A DNA stretch of 64,000 nucleotides from Pseudomonas sp. MAG733B (lineage in GTDB: Bacteria > Pseudomonadota > Gammaproteobacteria > Pseudomonadales > Pseudomonadaceae): the NCBI RefSeq assembly GCF_036884845.1, contig NZ_CP145732.1, forward strand, positions 3,100,001 through 3,164,000. The letters run 5' to 3'. The notes beneath the pieces are model-generated. The model was not told where the DNA came from. It saw only the letters and a program-made list of their open reading frames with translations, and made no database searches. This document shows positions 4,702-35,025 of this stretch, in pieces (position 1 is the first letter of the stretch; the number at the start of each line of letters is the position of its first letter). Position numbers and translations under genes: made by a program.

Positions 4702-4785
4702 GCAAGACTCCTCATCGATGGCAGGCCGGCAGTGGGCCGAGCGCCTGTGAATGAGGCTTACGATAGGTGGGGGGCATCGGACGAA

Positions 4786-4806
4786 CGCCACCCGAGGTGG
4801 GTGGCG
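4786..4806. promoter_or_regulatory. Palindromic operator, site A
   Basis: Perfect 8-nt arms CGCCACCC and GGGTGGCG flank a 5-nt spacer (GAGGT). The centre is about 95 nt upstream of the acyl-CoA dehydrogenase start at 4701. The same core recurs at sites B, C, E and F in this cluster. Confidence 0.7.
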
Positions 4807-4850
4807 GGTTGGAAATTCAGGACAACTGTTTTTTTTGAATCAAACACAAT

Positions 4851-4946
4851 CCCTGTGGGAGCTAGCCTGCTAGCGATGGCGGACTGTCAATCAATTCAAA
4901 TGTCGACTGTCACTCCGTCATCGCTAGCAGGCTAGCTCCCACAGGG
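4851..4946. repeat. REP inverted pair
   Basis: Perfect 28-nt inverted arms (4851-4878 and 4919-4946) contain GTGGGAGCTAGCCTGCTAGCG. The pair lies just past the 3' end of the MalT-like regulator and could separate its transcript from the operon that follows. Confidence 0.92.
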
Positions 4947-4960
4947 TTCTCTATTGGCAG

Positions 4961-7828
4961 TTAGTGGGTGGCAGTGCCTGGATCGTCCCGCGACTCCAGA
5001 TCCCGAACCCGCGCCACCGCTTCATCGCGGCTGCTGACGCCGAGCTTGCTGTAGATGTGGCTCAGGTGCCATTTCACGGTTTCCGGGGACAGCCCCAGGG
5101 CGCGGGCAATTTTCTTGTTGGGCAAGGCTTGGGCCAGCAGGCGCACGACTTCGATTTCCCGCTCGCTCAAGGGCTCGATGCCGGCCGCCAGCGGTTTGCT
5201 GGTTGTCGGTGTGGCCGGTTTATCCTTCGAGACGGCAGGCGCTGTCACGTTGGCCGCTTGCAGCCGCTCGACATAGAACGCCAGCACCGGGTCGAGGGTT
5301 TCCCGGCTGGCGATCTCGGAGATCAGCTTCAGCCCATCCTGATGGGCATCGAGCAGACTGCGCACCAGACCGAAGCGCTGCCCCCGGCGCAAGGCTTCCA
5401 TGATCTTGTCCCGCGCCAGTTCATGATTGCCGCGCTCGGACTCGATCACCGCACCCAGGACCAGCAGGCGCACCGTGCCGAGTTGGCGGCGATGGCGTTC
5501 GCAGGTCTCGATCAATCGTTCGATGCGCGTCGCCGCACCGTTCAGGTCGCCTTGAGCCAGTTGCCAGCGCACACGGGCGTTTTCGGTGAGGATGTGGATT
5601 TCCTTGAGCGCCGTGTGCCCGGCATCCGGGTGACGGGCATCGATGGCCTCCAGGCGCGTCAGTTTGGCGTGGGCCGCCGCCGATTCGCCGAGGATCAACA
5701 ACCAGCGCACCTGCCAGGTCAGGCAATACGCTTGCAGCCGTTCCAGGCCGAGCTTGATCGCGTACTCGTCCAGCCGTTCGACGAACGCCAGCGCTTCCTG
5801 CTGGTTGCCCGCCAGCCATTGCACGTTCCAAAGTACTTGCAGCACGCGCAGGACCGAGTCGGGGATCGAAATCCGCTCCAGGATATCGATCCAGCCCGAC
5901 AGCAGTTTGAACGCTGCGTCGACGTCGTTGGTTTCGTACAGCACTTCGCCCAGCAGCGCAGCGGAGAGGTAAGTCGCGTCGGCGCCGGCCTTGCCGCACT
6001 GGCCGGCCTCATGCAGCACATCGCGATAAACCCTTTCCGCCTGGGTCATCTGGCCTTCCAGCGCCAGGCTCAGGCCAATCATGCAACGCCCCTGAAGGCT
6101 GCCCGCCGTGGTGCCCAGCAACGGCTCGCCATTGATCAGCAAGGCAGGGCGGTCGAGTTGCACCTGGCGGGCCTTTTCATATTCGCCGCGATGCATGTAC
6201 AGCCACGACAGGATGTTCGCGCAAGAACCGATGGCCACGCTGTTGCTGCCCGGTGGCGGGTTGAGCAATTGCGGCAGCACCGACATGGCCGCGTCGGTGT
6301 CATCCCGCTGCAATGCCAGGGAAGCGCGCAGCAGCGAGATCATGAAACGGTCATGCACCTCGCTCTCGGGAACGTCGCGGAACAGTTGCTCCAGGCTGTT
6401 GGTGCAGGCATCGAAATCCCGGGCATAGAGTTGCATCCGGGCCTTGAGGATCCGCAGCTTGACCCGCGCCTGTACTTGCTCGACCGGCAGCAGCCGAACC
6501 AGCTCGATCAACATGCGCAGGTCGCCATGGGCATACAGCGCCTCGGCGTTCTGCTCCACCAGATCGGCAGCGGCCGAGGGATCGCCGCCCATCACCGCAT
6601 GGTGCACTGCTTCGTCCAGGTAACGATGGTCACGGAACCAGTTCCAGGCACGGACATGCACGGCGTGTTGTTCGGCCTGGCTGCGTGAATCGAAATACTT
6701 GAGCAGGGTTTCGCGCAGCAACGGGTGCAGGCGGTACCAGGTTTCGCGTTCGGCGCTGTCCACCGGGATCAGGAACAAATTGTCCCGCTCCAGGCGCGCC
6801 AGCAGCGCATTGGCTTCGGAAACCGCCTCGGGATGACCACTGAGGGCGGCGCACAGCGAAGCACAAAAGCGGTTGCAGACGGCCATGAGCAACATCAGGT
6901 CGAGATCGGTCGGAGACAGGTGGGACAGCACCTCGACTTCAAAAAACTTGGCGAAGGCCTGATTGTCCCGCACCTGAATCTGTACTGAAGGGGTGCCCGT
7001 GGTCGCCGGTGGCCGGTTCTTTTTGCGGCTGACCGCGAGCAGTTGCAGGCCCGCCGCCCAACCGTCGGTCAGCTCGTGCATCTGCTTGGCGTCGCGGGCG
7101 TCGATCTCGCCCAGTTGCGCCTTGAGGAATTGCTCGGATTCCGCCGGGGTAAAGCGCAAGTCGCGCAGGTTCAATTCCAGCACCAGCTCCTGGCTGCGCA
7201 ACCGCGCCAGGGACAACGGCACGGCGCTGCGCGAGACCAGCGCCAGATGCAGGTTGACCGGCGCGTAGTCGATCAGCCATTGCAGGGCCTGATGAATGCC
7301 CACGTCGGTCAGGTGATGAAGGTCATCGAGCACCAGCACCAGTTCGCGGCCGCGACTGGCAATGCTGCGCACCAGGGTGATGACCGTGCGTTCCACCGCT
7401 TCGCTGTCGATGCCGCGACCTTCCAGCTGGGTGGCTTCGCGCACCAGCGCGGGGTCGATCTGGCCGAGACTGGCGAGCAGATAATCGATGAAACGGGTCA
7501 ATTCGTTGTCATCAGCCGACAGCGTCAACCACGCCACATCGAACCCCAACGGCATCAGCGCCTGGCGCCAGGCAATCAGCGTCGAGGTCTTGCCGCAACC
7601 GGCCGGGCCCTTGAGCACGATGCAGCGCTGGCGGCGGGCCTTGAGCATTTGTTCTTGCAGGCGTTCGCGGGAAATCAGGCGCCCGGCGCTGCGCGGCGGA
7701 ACCAGTTTGGTGCTGACGATCGGCGACTGTGACGGATTCAAGACCTGGCTCGCGAGCGTGTCCGATGCATTGGACTTGCGGTGTTTGTCCATGGGGTTGT
7801 CCGAATCATTTTTGTTTTGAGAATGCAT
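4961..7828 (-). CDS. MalT-like LuxR-family transcriptional activator
   Basis: This 955-residue regulator has a STAND/MalT architecture. The Walker A motif GPAGCGKT is at residues 74-81, a Walker B-like [11 protein letters not shown] follows, then a long helical tetratricopeptide-type region. The C-terminal LuxR helix-turn-helix ([14 protein letters not shown] through [19 protein letters not shown]) lies near residues 885-945. Such proteins are ATP-dependent activators switched on by an inducer bound by the central region. The start is uncertain: ATG at 7828 or 7792, neither with a strong ribosome site; frames beyond 7828 would run into the divergent hydratase gene. Operator-like site B lies between the two genes. 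Confidence 0.9.
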
Positions 7829-7886
7829 TGAATCCAATCGAGTGTAACCCACAGCCCGAATGTCATGACCCTGACTTCGGCATCCG

Positions 7887-7903
7887 CCACCCGATGCGGG
7901 TGG
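7887..7903. promoter_or_regulatory. Palindromic operator, site B
   Basis: CCACCC-GATGC-GGGTGG with perfect 6-nt arms lies in the 180-nt divergent space between the MalT-like regulator and the enoyl-CoA hydratase gene. Its centre is about 67 nt from the regulator start and 114 nt from the hydratase start, so it may serve both. Confidence 0.7.
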
Positions 7904-8008
7904 TCGTCGACGATTCACGGATTGATCTACTGGACGGCATAACAACAGGAGTGCCGCCTGGCGCTCCATCAGAACAGCGCAGCAGCGGTGGAGCGCAGGA
8001 GTTAGCCC

Positions 8009-8812
8009 ATGGCCATTCAGTTCAAGATCATCGATCACGTGGCACTGATCACGCTCGATGCGCAACAGTCGAACAATGCGCTGAGCGCCAGCGACCTGAT
8101 GCACCTGCGCAAGACCCTTGGCGCCTGCCAGGATGACGAGCAGGTGCGGGTCATCGTGCTGACCGGTGCCGGAGAGCGTGCCTTTTGTTGCGGCGCGAGC
8201 CACAAGGAATCATTGCGGCCGGCGTCCGGTTTTATCGCCGGGACGTTGAAAAGCCGCGAGACCGAAGCCGAGGAGGGTGGTTACACACGCCTGTTCGACC
8301 TCAGCGACCTGGACATCTGGAAGCCGATCGTCGCCGCGATCAATGGCGCCTGCCTGGGCGGTGGTCTGGAGCTGGCGCTGCAATGTGACCTGCGGATCGC
8401 CGCCGACACGGCCACCTTCGGCTTGCCGGAAGTGCGCGACGCGACCATTCCGGCCGCGGGCGGCGTGCAATTGCTGCTGCGCGCGATTCCCGCCGCCCAC
8501 GCCATGAAAATCGCCCTGACGGGAGAGCCGGTCAGCGCCGGGGAAGCCTTGCGCATCGGGCTGATCATCGACCTGCTGCCCCAGGAGCGATTGCTCTCGA
8601 CGGCCCTGGACCTGGCCGAGCGCATTGCCGCCAACGGCCCGCTGGCGGTGCAGTCGATCAAGCGTTTGGCCCTGCAAACCAGCCACCTGACGCCACGGGA
8701 TTTCGCCATCCAGTCGCATCTTCATTGGGGTTTGTTGCGCGACAGCGAGGATCACGCCGAAGGGCGCATGGCCCTGGCCGAACAACGTAAACCGACCTAC
8801 ACCGGCACCTGA
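8009..8812 (+). CDS. Enoyl-CoA hydratase/isomerase family protein
   Basis: This 267-residue crotonase-fold protein shows the oxyanion-hole segments [12 protein letters not shown] (residues 52-63) and [22 protein letters not shown]. The glutamates expected in a standard hydratase are not obvious: the second lies in a [15 protein letters not shown] segment. Hydration, isomerisation or another crotonase reaction is therefore possible. AGGAG precedes the ATG by 7 nt. It is divergent from the MalT-like regulator and leads an operon with the two acyl-CoA ligases. Confidence 0.88.
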
Positions 8813-8866
8813 CCCGCTGCGCCCATTTCGTCCCTGCCTGACAACAATAATTTACAGGAGAGCCCC

Positions 8867-10423
8867 ATGTATCTGACCCAAGGCCTGCACCATGTGCTGC
8901 AACAACGCCCGAATGCACTGGCGACCGTTTTTCGCGACCGCCGCCGCACCTATGCCGAACTGGCCGACCGCGTCGCTCGCCTCGCCGGTGCGTTGCAGCA
9001 ACTGGGCATGCAGACTGGCGACCGGGTCGGCCTGCTGGGCCTGAACTCCGACCGCTTCCTCGAATACTTCCTCGCGACCTGGTGGGGCGGCGGCGTGGTC
9101 AACCCGGTGAATATCCGCTGGAGCGTGCCGGAAATCGTTTATTCGCTGGACGACTGCGACACCCGCATCCTGCTGATCGACGACACGTTCCTGCCCATGG
9201 CCGAAGGCATCGCCAGCACCGCCAGGGTGCGACCGTTGCTGATCCATATCGGCGACGGTCCGTTGCCTGAGGGCATGCTCTCCTACGAGCAACTGATCCG
9301 GGACGCAGCGCCGGTCGACGATGCGTTTCGCGGCGGCGACGACCTGGCCAGCATCATGTACACCGGCGGCACCACCGGGCGGCCGAAGGGTGTCATGCAA
9401 TCGCACATGAACCTGTGGTCGGCGGCCGTGGCCCGGGCTGCCGATGTGCCGGTGCCGACCGATGCCCTGACCCTGCACATCGCGCCGATGTTTCATCTGG
9501 CGGCGCTGTCGCGGGTGATCCTGATTTCGCTGCTCGGGCTGCCGAGCATCTTCGTCCCGGCCTTCGATGCGCTGGACGTGATGCGCACTATCGAGCGTGA
9601 ACGCATCACCGACATCCTGATTGTGCCGACCATGTTGCAAGTGCTGATCATGCACCCGGAATTCGCAAAACATGATTTGAGTTGCCTGCGCTGCCTGACC
9701 TATGGCGCCTCGCCGATTGCCGTGCCTTTGCTGGAAATGGCCCTGAAAGCCTTGCCGAATGTCGAGTTCACCCAAGGCTACGGCATGACCGAAGCCGCGC
9801 CACCGATCACCGCCAATGGCCCGGAAAACCATAACGCCGCAGGCATCGCCAGTGGCCGGTTGCGTTCGGCCGGACGGCCGGGGCTGGGGGTGACCGTGCG
9901 CATCGTCGACGAACACGACAACCCGGTCCCGCGCGGCACCGTAGGCGAAGTGGTGGTGCGCGGCCCGAACATCATGCTCGGCTACTGGAACAACCCCGAG
10001 GAAACCGCCAAGGCCCTGCGCGGTGGCTGGATGCACACCGGTGACGGCGCCTACATGGACGACGAGGGTTACATCTACATCGTCGACCGCTTCAAGGACA
10101 TGATCGTCAGCGGTGGCGAGAACGTGTATTCCGGCGAAGTGGAAAGCGCCATCGCCAGCCACCCGGCCGTCGCGGCCTGTGCGGTGATCGGCATTCCCTG
10201 TGCGCAATGGGGCGAAGCGGTGCACGCAGTGGTGGTGCTCAAGCCGGACAATCAAGTGGTAGACGCGCAGATCATCGAACACTGCCGCCGCCAGATTGCC
10301 GGCTACAAGACCCCGAAATCGGTGGAGTTCCGCATGAGCCTGCCATTGTCGGGCGCCGGCAAAGTGCTCAAGCGCGACCTGCGTGAACCGTTCTGGGCCG
10401 GCACGGATCGGGGTGTGAGCTGA
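8867..10423 (+). CDS. Acyl-CoA synthetase, AMP-binding (tandem copy 1)
   Basis: This 518-residue adenylate-forming ligase activates a carboxylic acid to its CoA thioester with ATP. The P-loop YTGGTTGRPKG is at residues 165-175, QGYGMTEAAP is the A5 motif, and HTGDGAYMDDEGYIYIVDR, the hinge, and the catalytic Lys in SGAGKVLKRDL follow. AGGAGA precedes the ATG. It is followed after 4 nt by a close paralogue, showing a tandem duplication within the operon. Probably makes the CoA ester entering beta-oxidation. Confidence 0.93.
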   Translation: MYLTQGLHHVLQQRPNALATVFRDRRRTYAELADRVARLAGALQQLGMQTGDRVGLLGLNSDRFLEYFLATWWGGGVVNPVNIRWSVPEIVYSLDDCDTRILLIDDTFLPMAEGIASTARVRPLLIHIGDGPLPEGMLSYEQLIRDAAPVDDAFRGGDDLASIMYTGGTTGRPKGVMQSHMNLWSAAVARAADVPVPTDALTLHIAPMFHLAALSRVILISLLGLPSIFVPAFDALDVMRTIERERITDILIVPTMLQVLIMHPEFAKHDLSCLRCLTYGASPIAVPLLEMALKALPNVEFTQGYGMTEAAPPITANGPENHNAAGIASGRLRSAGRPGLGVTVRIVDEHDNPVPRGTVGEVVVRGPNIMLGYWNNPEETAKALRGGWMHTGDGAYMDDEGYIYIVDRFKDMIVSGGENVYSGEVESAIASHPAVAACAVIGIPCAQWGEAVHAVVVLKPDNQVVDAQIIEHCRRQIAGYKTPKSVEFRMSLPLSGAGKVLKRDLREPFWAGTDRGVS

Positions 10424-10427
10424 CAGC

Positions 10428-11951
10428 ATGTACATGACTCAATGCCTGCAACGCACGCTGCAACAGAACCCCGACCATGTCGCGACGATCTTCGGTGAGC
10501 GCCGCCACAGCTACCGTGAATTTGGCGAGCGGGTCGCTTGCCTGGCGGGCGCCTTGCAGAACCTTGGAATGGCGGCGGGGGATCGGGTAGGCATGCTCGC
10601 GCTCAACTCCGACCGCTACCTGGAATACATCATGGGCGTGTGGTGGGGCGGTGGCGTGCTCAACCCGGTGAATGTGCGCTGGAGCGTGGCGGAGATTGTC
10701 TACTCGCTGGACGATTGCAGCACCGGCATCCTGATCGTTGACGAGCACTTTGCTGCGCTGGCTGACGACATCCGCAAGGCCGCTCGCCATGCGCCGCTCT
10801 TCATCTATGCCGGCGAGGGCGAAGTGCCGGTGGGCATGCTCGGTTTCGAGCAACTGATTGCCCAGACTGCACCAGTCGAGGACGCCGGGCGCGGTGGCGA
10901 AGACCTCGCCTGCATCATGTACACCGGCGGCACGACCGGTTTTCCCAAGGGCGTAATGCAGTCGCATTTGAACCTGTGGTCGGCGTGCATGCCGCGCATG
11001 ATGGACATGCCGCCGATCCGTGGTGGCTTGCTGCTGCACGTCGCGCCACTGTTTCACGTGGCCGGCATGGCCCGTGCGCTGATTCAATTTTTAGCCGGTG
11101 AAAGTCATGTGCTGGTGTCGGGTTTCGATGCGTTGCAAACACTGCAAATCATCGAGCAGGAACGGGTCACCGAAACGCTGCTGGTGCCGACGATGATCCT
11201 GGCATTGCTGGCTCATCCGGATTTTGAACGCTACGACCTCGGCAGCCTGAAACGCCTGACTTACGGCGCGTCACCCAGTGCCGGCGACATGGTCGAACAA
11301 GTGCTCGCACGGTTTCCGGACATCGAGTTGTCGCATTCCTATGGATTGACCGAAGCGTGCCCGGTGGTGTCGAGCAATCTGCCGTGCAACCACACACCGG
11401 AGGCGCGCATCAGCGGACTGTCGCGCTCGGTGGGGCGCGGCGGCCTGGGTGTCAACGTGAAGATTGTCGACCCGCAAGGCTATGAAGTTCCGCGCGGCAC
11501 GGTCGGAGAGATCATCGTGCGTGGGCCGAACATCATGCAGGGCTACTGGAACAAACCCGAGGAAACCGCCAAGACGCTGCGCAACGGCTGGTTGTACACC
11601 GGTGATGGCGCGTGGATGGATGAGCAGGGTTACTTGTACATCGTCGACCGGCTCAAGGACATGATCGTCAGCGGTGGTGAAAATGTTTACTCCGCCGAGG
11701 TCGAAAACGTTCTCGCCCGACACCCGGCCGTGGCCCAGTGCGCGGTGATCGGCATCCCCCATGAGCAGTGGGGCGAGGCGGTGCATGCAGTGGTGGTGTG
11801 CAAGCCCGGTTCGCACGTCGATGCCGAGCAGTTGCGTCTGTACTGCCGCGAATTCATCGCCGCCTACAAGTGCCCGAAAACTGTGGAGTTCCGCGACGAG
11901 CTGCCGCTGTCGGCAGCGGGCAAAGTCCTCAAGCGCGAACTGCGCAAGTAG
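10428..11951 (+). CDS. Acyl-CoA synthetase, AMP-binding (tandem copy 2)
   Basis: This 507-residue paralogue of the preceding ligase has YTGGTTGFPKG, SYGLTEACP, YTGDGAWMDEQGYLYIVDR and a catalytic Lys in SAAGKVLKREL. It starts 4 nt after the upstream stop codon and has no clear ribosome site of its own, so translation is probably coupled. The acyl-binding regions differ between copies (for example HVAPLFHVAGMAR against HIAPMFHLAALSR), suggesting different acyl preferences. Confidence 0.92.
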   Translation: MYMTQCLQRTLQQNPDHVATIFGERRHSYREFGERVACLAGALQNLGMAAGDRVGMLALNSDRYLEYIMGVWWGGGVLNPVNVRWSVAEIVYSLDDCSTGILIVDEHFAALADDIRKAARHAPLFIYAGEGEVPVGMLGFEQLIAQTAPVEDAGRGGEDLACIMYTGGTTGFPKGVMQSHLNLWSACMPRMMDMPPIRGGLLLHVAPLFHVAGMARALIQFLAGESHVLVSGFDALQTLQIIEQERVTETLLVPTMILALLAHPDFERYDLGSLKRLTYGASPSAGDMVEQVLARFPDIELSHSYGLTEACPVVSSNLPCNHTPEARISGLSRSVGRGGLGVNVKIVDPQGYEVPRGTVGEIIVRGPNIMQGYWNKPEETAKTLRNGWLYTGDGAWMDEQGYLYIVDRLKDMIVSGGENVYSAEVENVLARHPAVAQCAVIGIPHEQWGEAVHAVVVCKPGSHVDAEQLRLYCREFIAAYKCPKTVEFRDELPLSAAGKVLKRELRK

Positions 11952-11966
11952 CCACACCACATCCCC

Positions 11967-12060
11967 CCTGTGGGAGCGGGCTTGCTCGCGAAGGCGTCGG
12001 CACAATCAACATTGATGTTGACTGGCCAACCGCCTTCGCGAGCAAGCCCGCTCCCACAGG
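11967..12060. repeat. REP inverted pair
   Basis: Perfect 30-nt inverted arms (11967-11996 and 12031-12060) lie between the ligase pair and the next acyl-CoA dehydrogenase. Operator site C follows 46 nt downstream, so the pair probably sits near an operon boundary. Confidence 0.93.
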
Positions 12061-12105
12061 GTCGGTGTTCTATCCCTGAAATATGCTTTCAAACACCCCT
12101 AATCC

Positions 12106-12124
12106 GCTACCCGATCCGGGTGGC
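12106..12124. promoter_or_regulatory. Palindromic operator, site C
   Basis: GCTACCC-GATCC-GGGTGGC has one mismatch between 7-nt arms. Its centre is about 87 nt upstream of the acyl-CoA dehydrogenase ATG at 12202. Confidence 0.65.
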
Positions 12125-12201
12125 TGCATCACCACCCCCCGCCCATACAGTGGACTCACGAACCAGGCGCTCGTCTGCCTGGCAATCCACTGGAGATTCC
12201 G

Positions 12202-13341
12202 ATGCACATCAACCGTACCGTCTACCGTGAAGACCACGAAATGCTGCGTGAAACCGCGCGCCGTTTCTTCGAGCGTGAATGCCTGCCCAAGCAAGCGCAG
12301 TGGGACGAGGCCGGGCAGGTTGACCGGGAAACCTGGCTCAAGGCCGGTCGCCACAACCTCCTGTGTCTCACCGTGCCGACCGAGTACGGCGGTGGTGGCG
12401 GTGACTTCGGTCACTCGGCGGTGTTGATCGAAGAGCTGTACCGCTCCGGTGTTTCGGGTTGGAGCCTGGGCGTGCATTCGGACATCGTTGCGCCGTACAT
12501 CGTGCGTCTGGGCACCGAAGAGCAGAAGCAACAGTGGCTGCCGAAAATCTGCTCCGGCGAAACCGTCCTCGCCGTTGCGATGACCGAGCCGGGCACCGGT
12601 TCCGACCTCAAGGCGATCCGCACCACTGCCGTGCGCGACGGTGACGAGTGGGTGATCAACGGCAGCAAGACCTTCATCAGCAACGGCCTGACCTGCGACA
12701 TGGTCGTGGTCGTGTGCAAGACGGATCCGAGCGCTGGCGCCAAGGGCTGCAGCCTGATCATGGTCGAGTGCGACCGCGAGGGTTTCCGTCGTGGCCGCAA
12801 GCTGGAAAAAGTCGGCCAGCACGCTGCCGACACCGCCGAGCTGTTCTTCGACAACGTGCGCGTGCCGGTGGGCAACCTGCTGGGCGAAGAGAACAAAGGC
12901 TTCATGCACCTGATGGAAGAACTGCCGCAAGAGCGCCTGGTGATCGCTCTGTACAGCGCCGCCAAACTTGAGCGTCTGCTGGAGCAAACCGTCGAGTACG
13001 TGAAGGACCGCAAGGCTTTCAACCAGACCGTGTGGGACTTCCAGAACACCAAATTCAAACTCGCCGACATCAAGGCCCAGGCCACCGCCGTGCGCCTGAC
13101 CATCGACCACTACATCGGCGAACACATGCGCCGCCGCCTGACTGTGCAGGAGTCGGCCATCGCCAAGCTGTACGCCACCGAAACCCTGTGGAAATGCATC
13201 GACGACATGGTCCAGCTGCATGGCGGCTACGGCTACATGCTCGAGTACCCGATTGCCCGTGCCTTCGTCGACATGCGCGTGACGCGGATTTTCGGTGGCA
13301 CCAGTGAAGTGCTGCGTGAACTGATCGCGCGCCAGTTGTGA
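12202..13341 (+). CDS. Acyl-CoA dehydrogenase (second paralogue)
   Basis: This 379-residue FAD-dependent acyl-CoA dehydrogenase is strongly similar over its full length to the gene at 3562-4701 (both share FFERECLP, AMTEPGTGSDLKAIRTTAV-like and LHGGYGYM segments). RIFGGTSEV again lacks the YEG glutamate of the medium-chain type. GGAG lies at good spacing from the ATG. It is followed by the thiolase paralogue, so the dehydrogenase-thiolase unit is present twice in opposite orientations. Confidence 0.94.
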   Translation: MHINRTVYREDHEMLRETARRFFERECLPKQAQWDEAGQVDRETWLKAGRHNLLCLTVPTEYGGGGGDFGHSAVLIEELYRSGVSGWSLGVHSDIVAPYIVRLGTEEQKQQWLPKICSGETVLAVAMTEPGTGSDLKAIRTTAVRDGDEWVINGSKTFISNGLTCDMVVVVCKTDPSAGAKGCSLIMVECDREGFRRGRKLEKVGQHAADTAELFFDNVRVPVGNLLGEENKGFMHLMEELPQERLVIALYSAAKLERLLEQTVEYVKDRKAFNQTVWDFQNTKFKLADIKAQATAVRLTIDHYIGEHMRRRLTVQESAIAKLYATETLWKCIDDMVQLHGGYGYMLEYPIARAFVDMRVTRIFGGTSEVLRELIARQL

Positions 13342-13372
13342 GCCTTTCCTCCTTATTTTTTCAGGTGATTCC

Positions 13373-14581
13373 ATGAGCGAAAAAGTACTGGTTGCCGGTG
13401 TCGGCATGATCCCGTTCAACAAGCCCAGCGCCAGCCCGAGTTACGTGCAAATGGGCGCCGAAGCGGTGCGTCGCGCCCTGGCCGATGCGGGTATCGATTA
13501 CCACCTGGTGCAAGAGGCGTACGCCGGTTATGTGTACGGCGATTCAACCTGTGGCCAGACCGTGCTCTACGAAGTGGGCATGACCGGGATTCCGGTGGTC
13601 AACGTCAACAACAACTGCGCCACCGGTTCCACCGCGCTGTTCCTGGCGCGCAAGGCCATCGAATCCGGTTCCGCCGATTGCGTGCTGGCGGTCGGTTTCG
13701 AGCAGATGCAAGCCGGGGCGTTGAAGTCTCACTGGGATGACCGCCCGCCAACCCGCGAACGTTTCCTGCCGATACTTCGCGGCTTGACCGCCGACATGGA
13801 TGGCATGCCCCAGGCCATCCGCACCTTCGGCGGCGCCGGGCGCGAGTACATGCACAAATACGGCACCAAAATGGAAACCTTCGCCGCCGTGCGCGCCAAG
13901 GCCAGCCGTCATGCAGCCAACAACCCGCTCGCATTGTTTCGCAAGGTGCTCAGCGTCGAAGACGTGATGAACGACCCGGTGATTCTGCCAGGTGTGATGA
14001 CCCGACTGATGGCGTGCCCGCCGACCTGCGGTGGTGCTGCGGCAATCCTCGTTTCCGAGCGTTTTGCGAAAAAGCACGGCCTGCGCAGCGACGTGGAAAT
14101 CGTTGCCCAGGCGATGACCACCGACACCCCCGAATCCTTCAATTTCGAAAAGCCGTCGATGCTCGATTGGGTCGGCACTCACATGACCCACGCTGCCGTC
14201 GGACAGGTCTACGAGAAGGCCGGCGTCGGCCCGCAAGACATCGATGTCTGCGAACTGCACGACTGCTTCGCCCAGAACGAGGTGATTTGCTACGAGTCGC
14301 TGGGTTTCTGCCCCGAGGGCGGCGCCGAAAAGTTCGTGATGGATGGCGACAACACCTACGGCGGACAGATCGTCATCAACCCGTCCGGCGGCTTGCTTTC
14401 CAAGGGCCATCCGCTGGGTGCCACGGGGCTGGCGCAGTGCTACGAGCTGACCCAGCAACTGCGCGGCAACGCCGAACAACGTCAGGTTGAAGGTGCACGT
14501 CTGGCCATGGCCCACAACCTTGGTCTGGGCGGCGCCTGCGTGGTGACGCTCTACGGAAAAGTCAGCGGCGCGGCGCAGTGA
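13373..14581 (+). CDS. Lipid-transfer protein / SCPx-type thiolase (second copy)
   Basis: This 402-residue paralogue of the gene at 2350-3534 has Cys82 in NNNCATGSTALF, CELHDCFAQNE, and GHPLGATG near residue 345. It lies 31 nt downstream of its dehydrogenase partner, with AGGTGA before the ATG. The predicted role is thiolytic cleavage of a 3-oxoacyl-CoA in the cytoplasm. Keeping two copies suggests different acyl substrates or successive rounds on one substrate. Confidence 0.92.
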   Translation: MSEKVLVAGVGMIPFNKPSASPSYVQMGAEAVRRALADAGIDYHLVQEAYAGYVYGDSTCGQTVLYEVGMTGIPVVNVNNNCATGSTALFLARKAIESGSADCVLAVGFEQMQAGALKSHWDDRPPTRERFLPILRGLTADMDGMPQAIRTFGGAGREYMHKYGTKMETFAAVRAKASRHAANNPLALFRKVLSVEDVMNDPVILPGVMTRLMACPPTCGGAAAILVSERFAKKHGLRSDVEIVAQAMTTDTPESFNFEKPSMLDWVGTHMTHAAVGQVYEKAGVGPQDIDVCELHDCFAQNEVICYESLGFCPEGGAEKFVMDGDNTYGGQIVINPSGGLLSKGHPLGATGLAQCYELTQQLRGNAEQRQVEGARLAMAHNLGLGGACVVTLYGKVSGAAQ

Positions 14582-14686
14582 TCAGCACGTTTTTCCAGTG
14601 AATGTCACTGAGCGTAACGCCCGGCGAGCACTGCTCAAACCGGGTTGTTACGCAGCGGATTTACCCATGAAAAACCCTGGTTCAAA

Positions 14687-14702
14687 TCACCCGTTCGGGT
14701 GT
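14687..14702. promoter_or_regulatory. Palindromic operator, weaker site D
   Basis: TCACCC-GTTC-GGGTGT is related to the other operators but has a 4-nt spacer and only the CACCC/GGGTG arms pair. It lies about 73 nt upstream of the DUF1302 start, the position where the other sites occur. Confidence 0.45.
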
Positions 14703-14767
14703 GAGGACCTCACCGGAGCCCCGCTAGCATGGGCTCTCCAACACTTATCCTTAACCGGAGAAACCGC

Positions 14768-16600
14768 ATGACAAAAACAACAATGCGCGGAGTCTTCCAG
14801 CCAAGTTTGCTGGCCGTAGCTGTGATGGTTGCAACCTGCGCGGGCAATCAGGCTCACGCTGTTGATTTCAACATCGGGGAGATTCAGGGCACGTTCGATT
14901 CGTCGCTGTCGATTGGCGCCAGTTGGTCGACGACCGACCCGGACAAGCAGTTCATATCGAATTTCAACTCACAGGGTGTGACCGGTGGCGAGTCCGCCTC
15001 GCGGACCACCGACGACAATCGCCTGAACTTCAAGAAGGGTGAAACCTTCTCGAAGATCTTCAAGGGTGTGCATGACCTGGAACTGAAATACGGCGACAGC
15101 GGCGCCTTCGTGCGCGGCAAGTATTGGTACGACTTCGAACTGATGGACGAGAGCCGGCCGTTCTACGATATCAATGACGCCGGACGTGATCGCGCGGCGA
15201 AGTCGTCCGGGGCGATGTTCCTCGACAGCTTCGTCTACCACAACTACACGATCGGCGATCAGGTCGGCAACGTGCGGCTTGGCAAGCAAGTGGTGAGCTG
15301 GGGCGAGAGTACGTTCATCGGCAATTCGATCAACAGCATCAACCCGGTCGACGTCGCAGCCTTGCGCCGTCCGGGCGCGGAAGTGAAGGAAGGCCTGATC
15401 CCGGTCAACCTGCTCTACGTGTCCCAGGGCCTGGCCGACAACATCACCGCCGAAGCGTTTTATCAGCTGGAGTGGGAAAAATCGGTGGTCGACAACTGCG
15501 GCACGTTCTTCGGCAACGACGGCGTACCGCAAGGTTGCAACGACCGGTTGGTGATCGCAGGCCTCGACCTGCCACCGGGTGCAGCGCGCAATACCGGTGG
15601 TCTGGCGGCCATCGCCGCCGGAACGGACGACGCCTTTATTCCGCGCGTGAAAGACAAGGATGCGCGCGACAGCGGCCAGTATGGCCTGGCGTTGCGCTGG
15701 TACGTCCCCGAGGCGAACGACACCGAGTTCGGTGCCTACGCGATGAACTACCACAGTCGTAGCCCGTACCTGAGCATCAACCAGATGAGCAACCCGGCAG
15801 GTGGCGTGGCATCGGCGCGCAGTGCCCGCTACTTCATCGATTACCCCGAAGATATTCGTCTCTATGGCTTGAGTTTCCAGACCAACGTCTCGGGCGTTTC
15901 ACTGGGTGGTGAGGTCAGCTACCGGCCGAACATGCCGCTGCAACTGAACACCGCCGACCTGTTGTCGTCCGCGACCTTCGGCGCCACCTCGCCGTTGATC
16001 AGCACCGGTTTCGCCGGTCGCACCCTCGGCGGTGAGGTCAACGGCTACAAGCGCATGCCGGTGACCCAGGCCCAAGTGACCGCGACGCAGTTTTTCGATC
16101 AGGTGTTGGGCGCCAGTCGTCTGACCGTGGTGGGTGAGGTGGGTTACAACCACATCAATGGCTTGGGCAAGGCCGATGGTACTGACCTGCGCTTCGGTCG
16201 CAGCCCGGCCTTCGGTTCCGGTGAATTGCCGGGCGCTGCCGGGGCGGCCACCTGCCGAGGCACCGCCGCAGGTACGCCGACCGCCAGCAACCCGGCGCAG
16301 GAATGCAACGACGATGGCTTCTACACCAGCAACAGCTGGGGCTATCGCCTGCGCGGCAAGCTCGATTACCAGAACGTGATCGCCGGTATCAACCTGTCGC
16401 CGAACATCGCCTGGTCCCATGACGTCGAGGGTTACGGCCCGAACTTCGATGAAGGCTCCAAAGCGGTCAGCGTCGGTGTCGATGCGGACTACCTGAACAC
16501 CTACAACGCCAGCCTGAGTTACACCAATTACTTCGGTGGCGATTTCAACACCAACGTCGACCGCGACTACGTTGCGCTCAGCTTCGGCGTGAATTTCTGA
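14768..16600 (+). CDS. DUF1302 outer-membrane beta-barrel protein
   Basis: This 610-residue protein begins with a signal peptide (hydrophobic stretch to NQAHA, cleavage before VDF) and continues in beta-rich, alternating sequence ending in VALSFGVNF, as expected of a porin-like outer-membrane barrel. It matches the DUF1302 family, which is usually encoded next to DUF1329, as here. The ATG at 14768 has CCGGAG upstream; an earlier in-frame ATG at 14729 would disrupt the signal peptide. Within this cluster it may move a hydrophobic substrate across the envelope, but its biochemical role is not established. Confidence 0.9.
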   Translation: MTKTTMRGVFQPSLLAVAVMVATCAGNQAHAVDFNIGEIQGTFDSSLSIGASWSTTDPDKQFISNFNSQGVTGGESASRTTDDNRLNFKKGETFSKIFKGVHDLELKYGDSGAFVRGKYWYDFELMDESRPFYDINDAGRDRAAKSSGAMFLDSFVYHNYTIGDQVGNVRLGKQVVSWGESTFIGNSINSINPVDVAALRRPGAEVKEGLIPVNLLYVSQGLADNITAEAFYQLEWEKSVVDNCGTFFGNDGVPQGCNDRLVIAGLDLPPGAARNTGGLAAIAAGTDDAFIPRVKDKDARDSGQYGLALRWYVPEANDTEFGAYAMNYHSRSPYLSINQMSNPAGGVASARSARYFIDYPEDIRLYGLSFQTNVSGVSLGGEVSYRPNMPLQLNTADLLSSATFGATSPLISTGFAGRTLGGEVNGYKRMPVTQAQVTATQFFDQVLGASRLTVVGEVGYNHINGLGKADGTDLRFGRSPAFGSGELPGAAGAATCRGTAAGTPTASNPAQECNDDGFYTSNSWGYRLRGKLDYQNVIAGINLSPNIAWSHDVEGYGPNFDEGSKAVSVGVDADYLNTYNASLSYTNYFGGDFNTNVDRDYVALSFGVNF

Positions 16601-16626
16601 TGCAACCCTGCCAGAGGAAACTGAAC

Positions 16627-17994
16627 ATGAACGCACGTATTATTCTGCGCGCTGGCGCACTGAGTCTGTCGTTGCTGGCCAGTGGTGTAATGGCCGCTGT
16701 GTCCCCACAGGAAGCCGCTCAGCTGGGCACCACGTTGACCCCATTGGGCGCTCAGAAAGAGGGCAATGCCAACGGCAGCATTCCGGCCTGGACCGGTGGC
16801 TTGAAACCCGGTGCCGCCGCGCTCGACAACGGTTTTCTCGGTGACCCGTTCGCCAGTGAAAAACCGCAATTCGTAATAACTGCGGCCAACGTCGACCAAT
16901 ACAAGGACAAGCTGACCCCCGGGCAGGTGGCGATGTTCAAGCGCTACCCGGACAGCTACAAGATCCCGGTGTACAAGACCCAGCGCACCGCGTCGTCGCC
17001 ACAGAACATCTACGACATTGCCAAGAAAAGTGCGGTGACCACCGAGCTGACCCCGGACGGCAACGGTCTGGTCAATTTCACCCAGACCCGTTACTACCCG
17101 TTCCCGATTCCGAAGAACGGTGTCGAGGTTTACTGGAACCACACCAACCGTTATCGCGGCGGCAACATGGAGCGCCAGGCTGCTCAAGCCGCGCCGCAAA
17201 CCAACGGTTCGTATTCCATCGTCGAGTACGACGACAAGCTCGCTTTCCCGCAGTTGATGGAAGGCGTATCGGGTGGCGAGGGCGATAACGTCCTGTATTA
17301 CTACAAGCAGGAAATCACCGCGCCGTCACGCATGGCCGGCAGTGTGATCCTGATCCACGAGACCATCGATCAGGTCAAGGAACCGCGTCTGGCGTGGGTC
17401 TACAACGCCGGTCAGCGCCGCGTGCGTCGTGCACCGCAGGTGGCCTATGACGGCCCGGGCAACGGTTCCGACGGTATGCGCACCGCCGACAACACCGACA
17501 TGATGAACGGCGCACCGGATCGCTATGACTGGAAACTGGTCGGCAAAAAGGAACTGTACATCCCGTACAACAACTACAAATTGCAGTCGCCGAAAGTGAA
17601 GTACGACGACATCATCAAGCCAGGGCACATCAACCAGGACCTGACACGCTACGAGCTGCACCGCGTGTGGCACGTCGAGGCCACGCTCAAGCCCGGCCAA
17701 CGCCATGTCTACGCCAAACGCGACATGTACTTCGATGAAGACACCTGGCAACTGGCCGAAGTCGATCACTACGACGGTCGGGGTCAGCTGTGGCGGGTAG
17801 CGGAAGGTTATGCGATCAACGATTACGAGCGCGGTTCGCCCAACTTCGCCATGCTCGGCATCTATGACCTGATCGCCGGTCGCTACAACGTGCTGGCGAT
17901 GACCAACCAGTCCAAGCACGCAACGACCTACGGCATGACGGCGAAGATGACCGATTTCACCCCATCGGCGCTGCGTAACGCCGGCATCCGCTGA
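16627..17994 (+). CDS. DUF1329 periplasmic protein
   Basis: This 455-residue protein has a signal peptide (MNARIILRAGALSLSLLASG, cleaved after VMA) and the DUF1329 pattern, with GSIPAWTGG near residues 45-53 and YVLHR-like YELHRVWHVEATL further on. Structures in this family resemble LolA/LolB lipid-binding folds, which suggests binding of a hydrophobic molecule in the periplasm. It lies 26 nt after the DUF1302 gene with AGAGGAAA upstream, so the two are co-transcribed. The terminator at 18011 closes the unit. Confidence 0.9.
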   Translation: MNARIILRAGALSLSLLASGVMAAVSPQEAAQLGTTLTPLGAQKEGNANGSIPAWTGGLKPGAAALDNGFLGDPFASEKPQFVITAANVDQYKDKLTPGQVAMFKRYPDSYKIPVYKTQRTASSPQNIYDIAKKSAVTTELTPDGNGLVNFTQTRYYPFPIPKNGVEVYWNHTNRYRGGNMERQAAQAAPQTNGSYSIVEYDDKLAFPQLMEGVSGGEGDNVLYYYKQEITAPSRMAGSVILIHETIDQVKEPRLAWVYNAGQRRVRRAPQVAYDGPGNGSDGMRTADNTDMMNGAPDRYDWKLVGKKELYIPYNNYKLQSPKVKYDDIIKPGHINQDLTRYELHRVWHVEATLKPGQRHVYAKRDMYFDEDTWQLAEVDHYDGRGQLWRVAEGYAINDYERGSPNFAMLGIYDLIAGRYNVLAMTNQSKHATTYGMTAKMTDFTPSALRNAGIR

Positions 17995-18010
17995 CGCATC
18001 CCCGCTTGAA

Positions 18011-18036
18011 ACAACGCCCTGCTCGCAGGGCGTTGT
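18011..18036 (+). terminator. Terminator-like hairpin after DUF1329
   Basis: Perfect 10-bp stem ACAACGCCCT/AGGGCGTTGT with a 6-nt loop, 16 nt after the stop codon. There is no strong T-run, so termination is probable but not certain. Confidence 0.6.
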
Positions 18037-18045
18037 GCGTTGTGC

Positions 18046-18062
18046 CCACCTGATGCGGGTGG
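18046..18062. promoter_or_regulatory. Palindromic operator, site E
   Basis: CCACCT-GATGC-GGGTGG has one mismatch in the arms. Its centre is 67 nt upstream of the second MalT-like regulator, consistent with autoregulation. Confidence 0.65.
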
Positions 18063-18120
18063 CGCCTGTTCAGTCGCCTGGCTCAATGATGGAATCCTCT
18101 CTTCACCCGCGAGGTCCGTC

Positions 18121-20313
18121 ATGTTTGTGCCACGGCCGCATCTGAGCGATCTACTCAAGCGCGAGCAGCGCCGCTTGCAACTGCTTTGTGCACCGGCCGG
18201 TTACGGGAAAACCGCGTTGGTGGATGAATATCTGCAAGGGTTGGAGCAATCCGGGCAGGTGGTGTGGCTGAGGTTGGGTGGGCGGGGGCAGACGCTGGAA
18301 AGTCTGAATGCCGCGTTGGCAAATGCGCTTGGGGTGGCGGCGGATGCCGTGCTGGCGTTTCTCGATTCAGGAAATGTGGTGACTGAAGCACCGCCATCGC
18401 GAGCAGGCTCGCTCCTACAGGGGAACGCGGTCAACTGTAGGAATGAGCCTGCTCGCGATGAGGCCCTTGCAAGCGCTGAAACCCTAAAGGTTCGCCTTGT
18501 TTTCGACGACCTGCCAGCCGAGTTGCCCACTGATCTGAACCACTGGTTCGACCAACTCCTGTCCCTGCAAAACCCCCATCTGCACATACTGGTCACCTGC
18601 CGCCAACGCCCCGACTGGAACCTGCCGCGCCTGATGCTCAACGGTCAGTTGCTGGAACTGGACGCCCGGCAACTGGCCCTGCGGCCTGATGAGTTCGAAG
18701 CGCTGATCAATGGGCTGGCAGCGCAAACCGACACGGCTTTGCGCGTACGACTGTGGCACGAAACCGGTGGCTGGTGCGCTGGTGTTCGCCTGCTATTGCC
18801 GTCGGCATTGGGCAATGCGCGGCCGTCATTGCTCGGCCAATACCTCGACCGGGAACTGTTGTCGCGCTTGAGCGAAGCACAGCTGGAGGTCCTGTTCGGC
18901 CTCGCGCATTTGTCCAAGGCCAGCGCTGAGCTTTGCGAGCAACTCTGGGAGGGGCAGCGGGCCGGTCGGGTGTTCAACAGTCTGCTGGAGTGCCAGGCCT
19001 TTCTGGTCCCGGTCGATCATCAACCCGGCTGGTTCCGCCTGTTGCCTGCGGTGGCGCAAACACTGCAAGGGCAATTGAGCGGTACATCACTGAACCGCTT
19101 GCGCCTGCGCGCCTGTCAGTTGCTCAGTGTGCTGGGGCATGTCGATGATGCCGTCGAGCAAGCCCTGTGCGCCGATCAGCCGGAAGTCGCCGCCAACTAC
19201 ATGGAGCGTTTGTGGCTCAGCTGGATTCTCGGCGAACGGCACCTGAACAAGCTCATGGACTGGCGTGAACGCATCGAACCGCAATTGCTGCAAAGCAGTC
19301 CGCGTTTGATTTACCTGTGCGCCAAGGCCTTGTTGTTCAGTGGTCGACTGGATGAAGCCGAAGCGTGCCTGCAACGTCTCGGGCACTTTTTGCCGCTCCC
19401 CGATCCGCAGCGAAACCGGCGCCTGCTGGCCAACTGGCAGGGTCTCTTCGGTACCTTGCACGCCTTGCGCGGCAATACTGAAACGGCGCGCCTGCACTGT
19501 CGCGCCGCCCTTGAAGACCTGACCACGCAGGACTGGCTGTCGGTGTTGTTGTGCCAGTGCATCCTGGCGCGCATCGCCATGCAGACTGCGGATCTGTCCG
19601 AGGCGCAGACGCTGCTGCAGTCTTCGCTGGAGCTCGCCCGGCGTCAGGGCAGTCATGAATCGGAAGTGCTGGTCAACACGGACCGGGCGCGGTTGATGAT
19701 GCTTCAGGGCGATTTTAACCAGGCGCAAGCGCTGTTGCGCACCGAGCTCAAACGCTTGAACGGCAACCGGGCTCAGCCGTATCCATTGCTCGGTCGGTTA
19801 CTGTTCCAGCACGGCGAATTGCTGTTGCAACAGGGCCATATCGGCGAAGCCGAGCAGGTCGCGCAGGCCGGGTTGATACAGGTGCGCGATTGCTGCGCGC
19901 CGTTTGTACTCAATGGTTACCTGTTGTTGTCCGAGATTGCCTCGCGCAATCAGCAACCGGAGAAGGCGCACCTGATGCTGTACGAAGCCGAGCGGCGCAT
20001 GCATTGGGGCAAGATCGACAGCGCTTGTTACGAGGCGCCGATCGCTGCGCAAAAAGCCCGGATTGCGCAACGCGAACAACCGGCGCCGACCCGCTTGAGC
20101 GTCGTGCCGGATTATCAGGATGACCTGACGCCCCGCGAGGTGTCGGTGCTCAAGTTGCTGGCCGAAGGCATGTCGGTGCGGGAGGTCGGCAGCCGGCTGT
20201 TCATCTCGGAAAACACCGTCAAGACCCACGCCAAGAACATCAACGTCAAGCTCGGCGCCTGCCGCCGTACCCAGGCCATCAACAGCGCTAAGGCGATGGG
20301 CATCCTCGCTTGA
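18121..20313 (+). CDS. MalT-like LuxR-family regulator carrying a REP pair in frame
   Basis: This 730-residue regulator has Walker A APAGYGKT at residues 24-31, Walker B-like RLVFDDLP near 123-130, a helical repeat region and a C-terminal LuxR helix-turn-helix (LTPREVSVLKLLAEGMSVREV, then FISENTVKTHAKNINVKL). The ATG at 18121 has GAGG at good spacing. Residues about 92-114 are encoded by an inverted REP pair (18395-18460) that keeps the frame open, just before Walker B. The protein is shorter than the first regulator of this cluster. Site E upstream and site F downstream suggest it controls itself and the aldehyde/alcohol dehydrogenase genes. Confidence 0.9.
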   Translation: MFVPRPHLSDLLKREQRRLQLLCAPAGYGKTALVDEYLQGLEQSGQVVWLRLGGRGQTLESLNAALANALGVAADAVLAFLDSGNVVTEAPPSRAGSLLQGNAVNCRNEPARDEALASAETLKVRLVFDDLPAELPTDLNHWFDQLLSLQNPHLHILVTCRQRPDWNLPRLMLNGQLLELDARQLALRPDEFEALINGLAAQTDTALRVRLWHETGGWCAGVRLLLPSALGNARPSLLGQYLDRELLSRLSEAQLEVLFGLAHLSKASAELCEQLWEGQRAGRVFNSLLECQAFLVPVDHQPGWFRLLPAVAQTLQGQLSGTSLNRLRLRACQLLSVLGHVDDAVEQALCADQPEVAANYMERLWLSWILGERHLNKLMDWRERIEPQLLQSSPRLIYLCAKALLFSGRLDEAEACLQRLGHFLPLPDPQRNRRLLANWQGLFGTLHALRGNTETARLHCRAALEDLTTQDWLSVLLCQCILARIAMQTADLSEAQTLLQSSLELARRQGSHESEVLVNTDRARLMMLQGDFNQAQALLRTELKRLNGNRAQPYPLLGRLLFQHGELLLQQGHIGEAEQVAQAGLIQVRDCCAPFVLNGYLLLSEIASRNQQPEKAHLMLYEAERRMHWGKIDSACYEAPIAAQKARIAQREQPAPTRLSVVPDYQDDLTPREVSVLKLLAEGMSVREVGSRLFISENTVKTHAKNINVKLGACRRTQAINSAKAMGILA
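18395..18460. repeat. REP inverted pair inside a coding sequence
   Basis: Two 26-nt inverted arms (18395-18420 and 18435-18460; 24 of 26 positions complementary) with a 14-nt loop lie within the MalT-like regulator gene. The frame is maintained, adding about 23 residues (SRAGSLLQ ... NEPARDEA). Confidence 0.9.
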
Positions 20314-20326
20314 ATGTCCGCTGTCT

Positions 20327-20355
20327 GCCGCCACCCACCTGATCCGGGTGGCGGC
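20327..20355. promoter_or_regulatory. Palindromic operator, site F
   Basis: CCACCT-GATCC-GGGTGG (20335-20351) matches site E apart from one spacer base. It is nested in a larger palindrome with perfect 10-nt arms GCCGCCACCC and GGGTGGCGGC (20327-20336, 20346-20355). Its centre is about 103 nt upstream of the aldehyde dehydrogenase start. It lies 14 nt after the regulator stop codon, so it could also act as a terminator hairpin. Confidence 0.65.
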
Positions 20356-20445
20356 GCCGCGCCAGTGATGATCAACCATGCAGCCAGACCCCACGCATGG
20401 CTGCCTGAGTGCGGCCGCGTCCTGACAAAAACAAGAGAGGTAGTG

Positions 20446-22921: not shown

Positions 22922-23017
22922 CCCTGTGGGAGCGGGCTTGCTCGCGAAGGCGTCATGTCGGGCAACATCTATGGTGACTGACCCACCGTCTTCGCGAGCA
23001 AGCCCGCTCCCACAGGG
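22922..23017. repeat. REP inverted pair
   Basis: Inverted arms of 31 nt (22922-22952 and 22987-23017, one mismatch) lie between the alcohol dehydrogenase and the following acyl-CoA dehydrogenase. Confidence 0.92.
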
Positions 23018-23053
23018 GGTTGTGGTTTGTTCCAATGCTTTTGGAGTGATTGG

Positions 23054-34596: not shown

Positions 34597-35025
34597 ATGG
34601 CCGAAGAAGTTTTGAAGTGGAAACTGGTGAATTTTCTGGTGGCCGATGCCGAGGTGGACTACCACACCGTGAGTGATGTCTACGACGTCGTCGGGAGTGG
34701 CGATGTGGACGTGTTGGGCGACGTGCTGGAGACCTTCAAGGAAATACATGGCGGGTTGTGGGTTGGCGGAGGGCTGGTGATTACCCCGCGTGTGGTGCGC
34801 TTGAGCGCCAATGCGCTGAATCGTGCCGTCCAGGAGGGAACCCTCGATATCGAACTCCCGCACTCAATGATCCGCAAGGTCAGCGTCGAAGGTGGGTTCA
34901 TCACCAAAATCGTCCGTTTGGACACCCGTGCCGGCAGCGTTAAATTCCGCTGCTATGGGGCGAAGGCAGTCGCCGCGCTGATAGAAACGCTGATCCCCTC
35001 ACGGGCGTCGATGTCCGCCGTATAA
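34597..35025 (+). CDS. Hypothetical protein, possible GRAM/PH-like fold
   Basis: This 142-residue protein has GGGLVITPRVVRLSANALNR and IELPHSMIRKVSVEGGFITKIVRLDTRAGSV-like alternating beta sequence. That is reminiscent of bacterial PH or GRAM domains, but it is only a pattern impression. No signal peptide or membrane segment is seen. GGGAGATACGGAG precedes the ATG. It converges with the DUF1704 gene, with 5 nt between the stop codons. Confidence 0.7.
   Translation: MAEEVLKWKLVNFLVADAEVDYHTVSDVYDVVGSGDVDVLGDVLETFKEIHGGLWVGGGLVITPRVVRLSANALNRAVQEGTLDIELPHSMIRKVSVEGGFITKIVRLDTRAGSVKFRCYGAKAVAALIETLIPSRASMSAV

Follow-up and report, generated by a model that had tools for sequence, protein, structure and literature searches.

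The described systems closest to the one reported here pair a MalT-like activator with a repeated DNA site at catabolic promoters. AlkS of Pseudomonas putida GPo1 is a LuxR/MalT family activator of alkane degradation that acts at PalkB, and the cited part of PMC8784404 places an inverted repeat upstream of its target promoter and of an alkS promoter. TpdR, which acts at P-TTMP in Rhodococcus jostii TMP1, is presented in the portion of PMC6099782 drawn on here as a LAL activator of a catabolic operon whose repeat overlaps the -35 region. The subject of this work is a 17-bp palindrome, hereafter the N5 operator, which recurs before the genes of a catabolic island in a 64-kb stretch of DNA from Pseudomonas sp. 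MAG733B ("the window", G000:C1:3100001-3164000; the genome is a single contig of 6.65 Mb). Comparative evidence indicates that the palindrome probably serves as the operator for a regulon limited to this island, with a MalT-like protein encoded there, regulator 1, as the activator that binds it.

Both candidate regulators of the island have the architecture of MalT of Escherichia coli, with an ATPase, a TPR_MalT region and a C-terminal LuxR-type helix-turn-helix. Regulator 1 (4961-7792, minus strand, start at 7792 or 7828) has the LAL domain plan, scoring above the Pfam cut-offs for AAA_16 (37.7 bits, cut-off 32.6), TPR_MalT (59.7, cut-off 45) and GerE (63.1, cut-off 23.5), and we take the stretches GPAGCGKT and LVLVLDD in its translation to be Walker-like motifs. 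Regulator 2 (18121-20313, plus strand; Pfam, NCBIfam), from a second clade, also classes as a MalT-like LAL regulator, with 55.4 bits for TPR_MalT and 61.8 for GerE; its AAA_22 score of 25.1 is below the cut-off of 27. Neither is MalT itself, since they reach 302.5 and 154.2 bits, respectively, against the cut-off of 537 for the NCBIfam MalT equivalog. The sites differ as well: as far as the cited text of PMC6099782 goes, MalT uses two decanucleotides in direct repeat and the site put forward for TpdR is a direct repeat of 15 nt with another sequence, whereas the N5 operator is inverted; the AlkS repeat is inverted but 20 bp long and belongs to another pathway and other genes, a comparison made by description (PMC8784404, in part). 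The operator-regulator pair likely belongs to this MalT/AlkS-like kind, with regulator 1 as an activator. The lux box is 20 bp long and unlike the N5 operator in sequence, and in LuxR-box class II promoters the palindrome is centred near -42 and overlaps the -35 region, as is predicted here. An earlier sequence-only reading of the window had called the element undescribed, and no paper on it was found in our search of the openly licensed literature.

A palindrome confined to one island

The N5 operator is an inverted repeat of 6-bp arms around a 5-nt spacer (CYACCY-N5-GGGTGG). Five copies lie in the window: operator A (4788-4804, arms extending over 4786-4806), which on the minus strand reads CCACCC-ACCTC-GGGTGG toward ACAD1; B (7887-7903, +), between the divergent regulator 1 and ECH genes; C (12107-12123, +), before ACAD2; E (18046-18062, +), before regulator 2; and F (20335-20351, +), before ALDH. 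A sixth, G (G000:C1:3099707-3099723, equal to L029:14707-14723), precedes a predicted secreted sulfatase gene; here and below, G labels with numbers denote genus genomes, G000 being that of the window, and L labels denote loci, of which L031, L037 and L038 were left out of one analysis. The nearer end of operator G is 278 bp to the left of window position 1; the site shares bases with the 3' end of a short-chain dehydrogenase frame and lies 84 bp before the sulfatase frame. On the gene strand, A, B and C have C at position 6 (C6 class) and E, F and G have T (T6 class). The sequences and coordinates given in the sequence-only reading for A to F, including its weaker element D, all read exactly as noted, and its placing of the sites 65-115 bp before start codons agrees with the 67-114 bp that separate site centres from likely starts, as inferred from reading frames.

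Exact CYACCYNNNNNGGGTGG occurs at these six places in the whole genome (8 strand matches), all within 3,099,707-3,120,351, a stretch of 20.6 kb, and the backwards-read control gave 3 strand matches. The exact pattern is confined to the island, with one copy, G, outside the window. When up to three mismatches to the consensus CCACCCGANNCGGGTGG are allowed, the window holds 13 strand matches, ten of which are the five strong sites on both strands and three of which lie at 44757 (both strands) and 63049; shuffled windows gave a mean of 3.94 and a maximum of 9, and 0/100 reached 13. Further genomic sites under the pattern CCACCYGANSCGGGTGG were rejected, as the matches outside the cluster (22 strand matches with two mismatches and 2 with one) are close in number to the backwards control (21). 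A check for open frames does not discriminate among these extra sites, because true sites also lie in stop-free frames.

Conservation within the genus follows the same pattern. Regulator 1, by which the nearest named relatives of the window's genome are Pseudomonas, was matched in 35 of 298 genus genomes at E<=1e-60, mostly by distant paralogues, and 11 clusters were compared, the window's and ten others with regulator 1 at 61-92% identity. With up to two mismatches, A, B, C and F are each kept in 11/11 clusters, E in the 10 that hold regulator 2, and G in the 6 whose sulfatase gene sits at the corresponding position. The pattern CYACCYGANNCGGGTGG has 43 matches in the 11 genomes with a regulator 1 orthologue (61-100% identity), 42 of them inside the cluster, compared with 20 across the other 287 genomes and 23 for the backwards control across all 298. 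In a G+C-rich genome with inverted REP-like repeats nearby, hairpins, repeats or chance palindromes without any regulatory role come to mind, yet such an origin is scarcely credible in view of the genome-wide exclusivity, the spacing to a -10-like hexamer described below, and the conservation of site columns, which averages 0.96-0.99 as against 0.50-0.71 in the upstream 60 bp (up to nine clusters).

Promoter geometry and recurrence in other genera

A -10-like hexamer is predicted 22 nt from every operator: TATCGT for A (4760-4765, -), TCTACT for B on the ECH side (7926-7931, +), TACAGT for C (12146-12151, +), AATGAT for E (18085-18090, +), AACCAT for F (20374-20379, +) and, from the site alignment, GAACAT downstream of G. 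Across 60 offsets in nine Pseudomonas clusters, the mean match to TATAAT, the -10 consensus, peaks at offset 22 (3.41 of 6; next 2.00; mean 1.16, standard deviation 0.44). If the -10 hexamer occupies -12 to -7, the operator would extend from approximately -51 to -35, which we infer to be a class II activator position, as such sites overlap or abut the -35 element and are centred near -42. A dimer of the C-terminal LuxR-type domain of regulator 1 would sit there against RNA polymerase and activate in the class II manner. On the other side of operator B, TACACT (7841-7846, -) is the predicted -10 of regulator 1; it lies 40 nt from the operator and is kept in several relatives. Operator B would then stand near -61 of regulator 1's own promoter and may serve it too, in autoregulation.

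A scan of named genomes provided 52 loci, including some from Cupriavidus, Variovorax, Paraburkholderia, Caballeronia and Bradyrhizobium. With at most one mismatch in the arms, all 52 loci together gave 131 matches at spacer 5, 2-29 at the other spacers from 0 to 12, and 2 for the reversed control at spacer 5. At the same tolerance, the 22 non-Pseudomonas loci around regulator 1 homologues (423,493 bases) gave 38 matches at spacer 5, 0-5 at each spacer of 0-4 and 6-10, and 1 for the reversed control at spacer 5. Since offset 22 had first been spotted by eye in the window's genome, these loci constitute an independent test of it, and their -10-like peak also falls at 22 (3.21; next 2.00; mean 1.52, standard deviation 0.30; 38 sites, scored in the better of two directions per site). 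In 12 of 20 non-Pseudomonas loci (two of the 22 were dropped because the sequence before regulator 1 was unusable), a site with up to two mismatches lies no more than 400 bp ahead of regulator 1; with reversed arms the count is 0/20. Regulator 2 was unmatched at E<=1e-40 in 9/9 non-Pseudomonas genomes searched, so that the operator accompanies regulator 1 there in the absence of regulator 2.

That the palindromes are bound by an unlinked regulator encoded elsewhere in the genome is improbable, given that the motif accompanies regulator 1 in Pseudomonas, Cupriavidus, Variovorax, Paraburkholderia and Bradyrhizobium, and that genus genomes lacking a regulator 1 orthologue show it only at background level. 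As the sites occur only in the island and recur beside relatives of regulator 1 in distant bacteria, the palindrome is likely the docking site of regulator 1. The sequence-only reading, which had proposed a shared operator of a local catabolic regulon, is upheld here by genome-wide exclusivity, cluster conservation, co-occurrence with regulator 1 in other genera and promoter geometry.

Several observations weigh against regulator 1 as the activator at these sites. Eight of the 20 usable non-Pseudomonas loci have no site with up to two mismatches within 400 bp before regulator 1. Offset 22 was tested within Pseudomonas on a set that included the genome in which it had been noticed, the operator-hexamer distance is 23 in several relatives, G266 and G027 have no clear hexamer after C, the columns near the hexamer are the best conserved in B, E and F but not in A and C, and the hexamers agree with TATAAT at only ~3-4 of 6 letters. 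In eight paralogue clusters (seven with regulator 1 at 42-48% identity, one at 61%), relaxed palindromes with spacers of 5, 6 and 7 nt number 26, 20 and 15, and the best -10 offset is 23, at 2.23 over a mean of 1.75.

Extension of the motif to these eight clusters, one of which lies in the window's genome at ~3.80-3.84 Mb, was rejected for its weak signal. The paralogous cluster at G000:C1 ~3.80-3.85 Mb (L082, L083, L188) has its own regulator 1-like (48%) and regulator 2-like (43%) genes, and its palindromes are weaker and different. The second cluster of G027 has two exact operator copies. A one-to-one pairing of recognition-helix changes with arm changes fits G266 and G027 (WYLRHIF helix, GGGGGG arms), but it fails elsewhere and was discarded: L148 and L156 have the same helix and different arms, and GGGGGG is also found in T6 sites.

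Two site classes, regulator 2 and site D

Position 6 on the gene strand is C in 85/85 A/B/C sites and T in 48/50 E/F/G sites, a count that excludes six named loci repeating genus genomes (L131, L133, L138, L142, L146, L147), that accepts A/B/C/G sites of named loci only with up to one mismatch to CCACCC-N5-GGGTGG, so that a T6 site carrying a further change would escape, that takes two A sites from L148, that leaves near-identical loci (e.g. L136/L137 and L139/L178) unmerged, and that draws its E/F sites from the 11 genus clusters and five further loci, the other named loci stopping short of E/F. The genes that follow T6 sites are the sulfatase, regulator 2 and ALDH-ADH-ACAD3-ACAD4, and those that follow C6 sites are the CoA-ligase and beta-oxidation operons. 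On this comparative evidence, T6 is a true site class, and in clusters with regulator 2 it is both old and stable.

The sequence-only reading had regarded both MalT-like regulators as binders and the T/C difference as what might separate them, regulator 1 reading C6 (A, B, C) and regulator 2 reading T6 (E, F, G). The near-complete split of the classes (T in 48/50 against 0/85) speaks for such a division. E and F also keep CCACCTGA in three clusters (L189-L191) whose regulator 2 shows no more than 38-53% identity. In G266 and G027 the near arm GGGTGG has become GGGGGG in all six C6 sites while the four T6 sites are unchanged; T6 sites too, however, can have GGGGGG arms. G271 lacks a regulator 2 orthologue (best match 43%), yet keeps F as CCACCTGATCCGGGTGG, and the same CCACCTGATCCGGGTGG precedes regulator 1 in L149 and L151, betaproteobacterial loci from genomes without a regulator 2 match. 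F is of the C6 class in G275 and G243, both of which hold regulator 2. Eight loci of regulator 2 paralogues (L181-L188) have no N5 word, at up to one mismatch, before the regulator 2 or DUF1302 gene, and the sole N5 word among them, in L181, is 2.4 kb off. We therefore consider a two-regulator division of the sites rather unlikely. The class difference itself has thus stood, and regulator 1 is retained as a likely binder by its co-occurrence with the sites; the assignment of T6 to regulator 2 is unsupported as stated, because G271 keeps F without regulator 2 and because T6 sites precede regulator 1 in L149 and L151. Regulator 2 may yet co-read T6, given the stability of the class where that protein is present; it could modulate these copies, or else be the reader of the separate element D.

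Site D (14687-14702, +; TCACCC-GTTC-GGGTGT) is 16 bp long with a 4-nt spacer and is followed at 22 nt by a predicted -10-like TAGCAT (14725-14730, +). It is exact in 8/11 clusters; inspection by eye showed degenerate forms in G266 and G027 and none in the G271 cluster. At E<=1e-95, genes of the regulator 2 family occur at 21 loci in 15/298 genus genomes. Of these loci, 11 lie outside the window's cluster type, and DUF1302/1329 genes are present at 11/11 of them. The DUF1302 promoters of these 11 loci (L181-L188, L215-L217) have, by eye, a proximal AAATcaCCc-type word whose distance to a TAG[CG]AT or TATCGT hexamer is within ~2 nt or less of that in D. Some of these promoters add a distal palindrome resembling TCACCC-N4-GGGTGA. 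A matrix of the DUF1302-promoter words, built from ten of the eleven elements (L187 left out), ranks D first in the window on both strands, with a score of 16.17; the second-best word, at 34907-34925 (+), scores 14.43. The sequence-only reading had taken D for a weaker copy of the palindrome. We reject that view: D is conserved across clusters and is picked out by a matrix from DUF1302 elements of regulator 2 paralogue loci, and it therefore represents an element class of its own, which is conserved ahead of DUF1302 genes and perhaps read by the regulator 2 family.

These data bring forward an arrangement in which regulator 1 reads both N5 classes, position 6 tunes affinity or directionality and thereby sets the upper-pathway genes apart from those of beta-oxidation in strength or timing, and regulator 2 reads the D-type DUF1302 element. 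We regard it as a serious contender that falls somewhat short of an even chance. All of the evidence counted above against a two-regulator split speaks for it, as do the constant company of DUF1302/1329 at the 11 regulator 2 family loci and the rank of D with the DUF1302-promoter matrix. Against it, several of the 11 loci match regulator 1 at 23-26%, i.e. they contain another LuxR-type gene or region, and a D-like word before regulator 2 genes was not seen among the matches listed. The 4-nt-spacer geometry of D is, moreover, not common to the paralogue DUF1302 elements, in which the best palindrome spacer is 7, with 4 or 6 further upstream.

The island and its predicted regulon

The genes around the N5 operators form an island that is predicted to degrade sulfated, side-chain-bearing compounds. 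Leftward (Pfam, NCBIfam) run the sulfatase, a short-chain dehydrogenase (SDR) gene, a row of ACAD1, THIO1, two MaoC genes and an SDR gene, and regulator 1. In that row, a probable operon, ACAD1 encodes an acyl-CoA dehydrogenase (3562-4701, -; likely GTG start at 4701) and is followed by THIO1 (2350-3534, -), two MaoC-type hydratases (1879-2319 and 1448-1864, -) and, last, SDR2 (593-1417, -). Rightward (Pfam, NCBIfam) lie ECH (8009-8812, +) with two AMP-dependent acyl-CoA ligases (8867-10423 and 10428-11951, +), ACAD2 (12202-13341, +) with the SCP-x-type thiolase THIO2 (13373-14581, +), the DUF1302-DUF1329 pair (14768-17994, +; frame from 14729, likely start 14768), regulator 2, ALDH (likely start 20446, +) and a Zn-ADH (ending at 22909, +), the pimC-like ACAD3 (23027-24247, +) and the pimD-like ACAD4 (24260-25402, +).

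The MaoC hydratases, SCP-x-type thiolase and paired acyl-CoA dehydrogenases are traits of steroid side-chain clusters; the two ligases score 307 and 325 bits against steroid-24-oyl-CoA synthetase, for which the NCBIfam cut-off is 750. DUF1302 and DUF1329 are a predicted outer-membrane/periplasmic uptake pair, a role suggested because PP_0765/PP_0766 of P. putida, members of the same families, are needed for growth on Tween 20 and have been proposed to act in substrate transport; the cited part of PMC10866462 describes neither an operator nor a regulator for them. The pathway would thus comprise uptake, desulfation, conversion of an alcohol to an acid, CoA ligation, and beta-oxidation with thiolysis of a branched or ring-borne side chain.

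A second sulfatase gene (L029:6916-8583, -), 33% identical to the first, has no exact N5 site before it. The clusters of G243, G172, G107 and G131 carry extra ACAD- and ECH-like genes between THIO2 and DUF1302, which are absent from the window. Repeats starting CCCTGTGGGAGC form inverted pairs in three island gaps (window 4851-4945, 11966-12060 and 22922-23016) and resemble Pseudomonas REP elements.

With regulator 1 as the activator, the six operator copies would serve the sulfatase, ACAD1, regulator 1/ECH, ACAD2, regulator 2 and ALDH, and the inducer would be a metabolite of the pathway. The T6 copies precede regulator 2 and the genes of the predicted upper pathway (sulfatase, ALDH-ADH), and the C6 copies precede the CoA-ligase and beta-oxidation genes. 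A broader and more tentative picture, which we hold to be possible though on the unlikely side, is that of a travelling control module, in which one family of LAL regulators and the 17-bp N5 operator that goes with it, at a fixed 22 nt from the -10, are kept across Pseudomonas, Burkholderiales and Bradyrhizobium, position 6 sorts an upper tier (desulfation, alcohol oxidation) from a beta-oxidation tier, and the uptake genes are under another LAL regulator acting via a different element.

Few LAL regulators have a known operator in what the searched openly licensed literature offered; the pair of regulator and operator proposed here, for which consensus, spacing and position are predicted, recurs across orders. 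With the motif, a regulon can be proposed for each homologue by sequence, and the T/C split provides a one-base hypothesis on how a single regulon may be divided. The motif also offers a reporter toward the inducer, and thence toward the substrate of the island.

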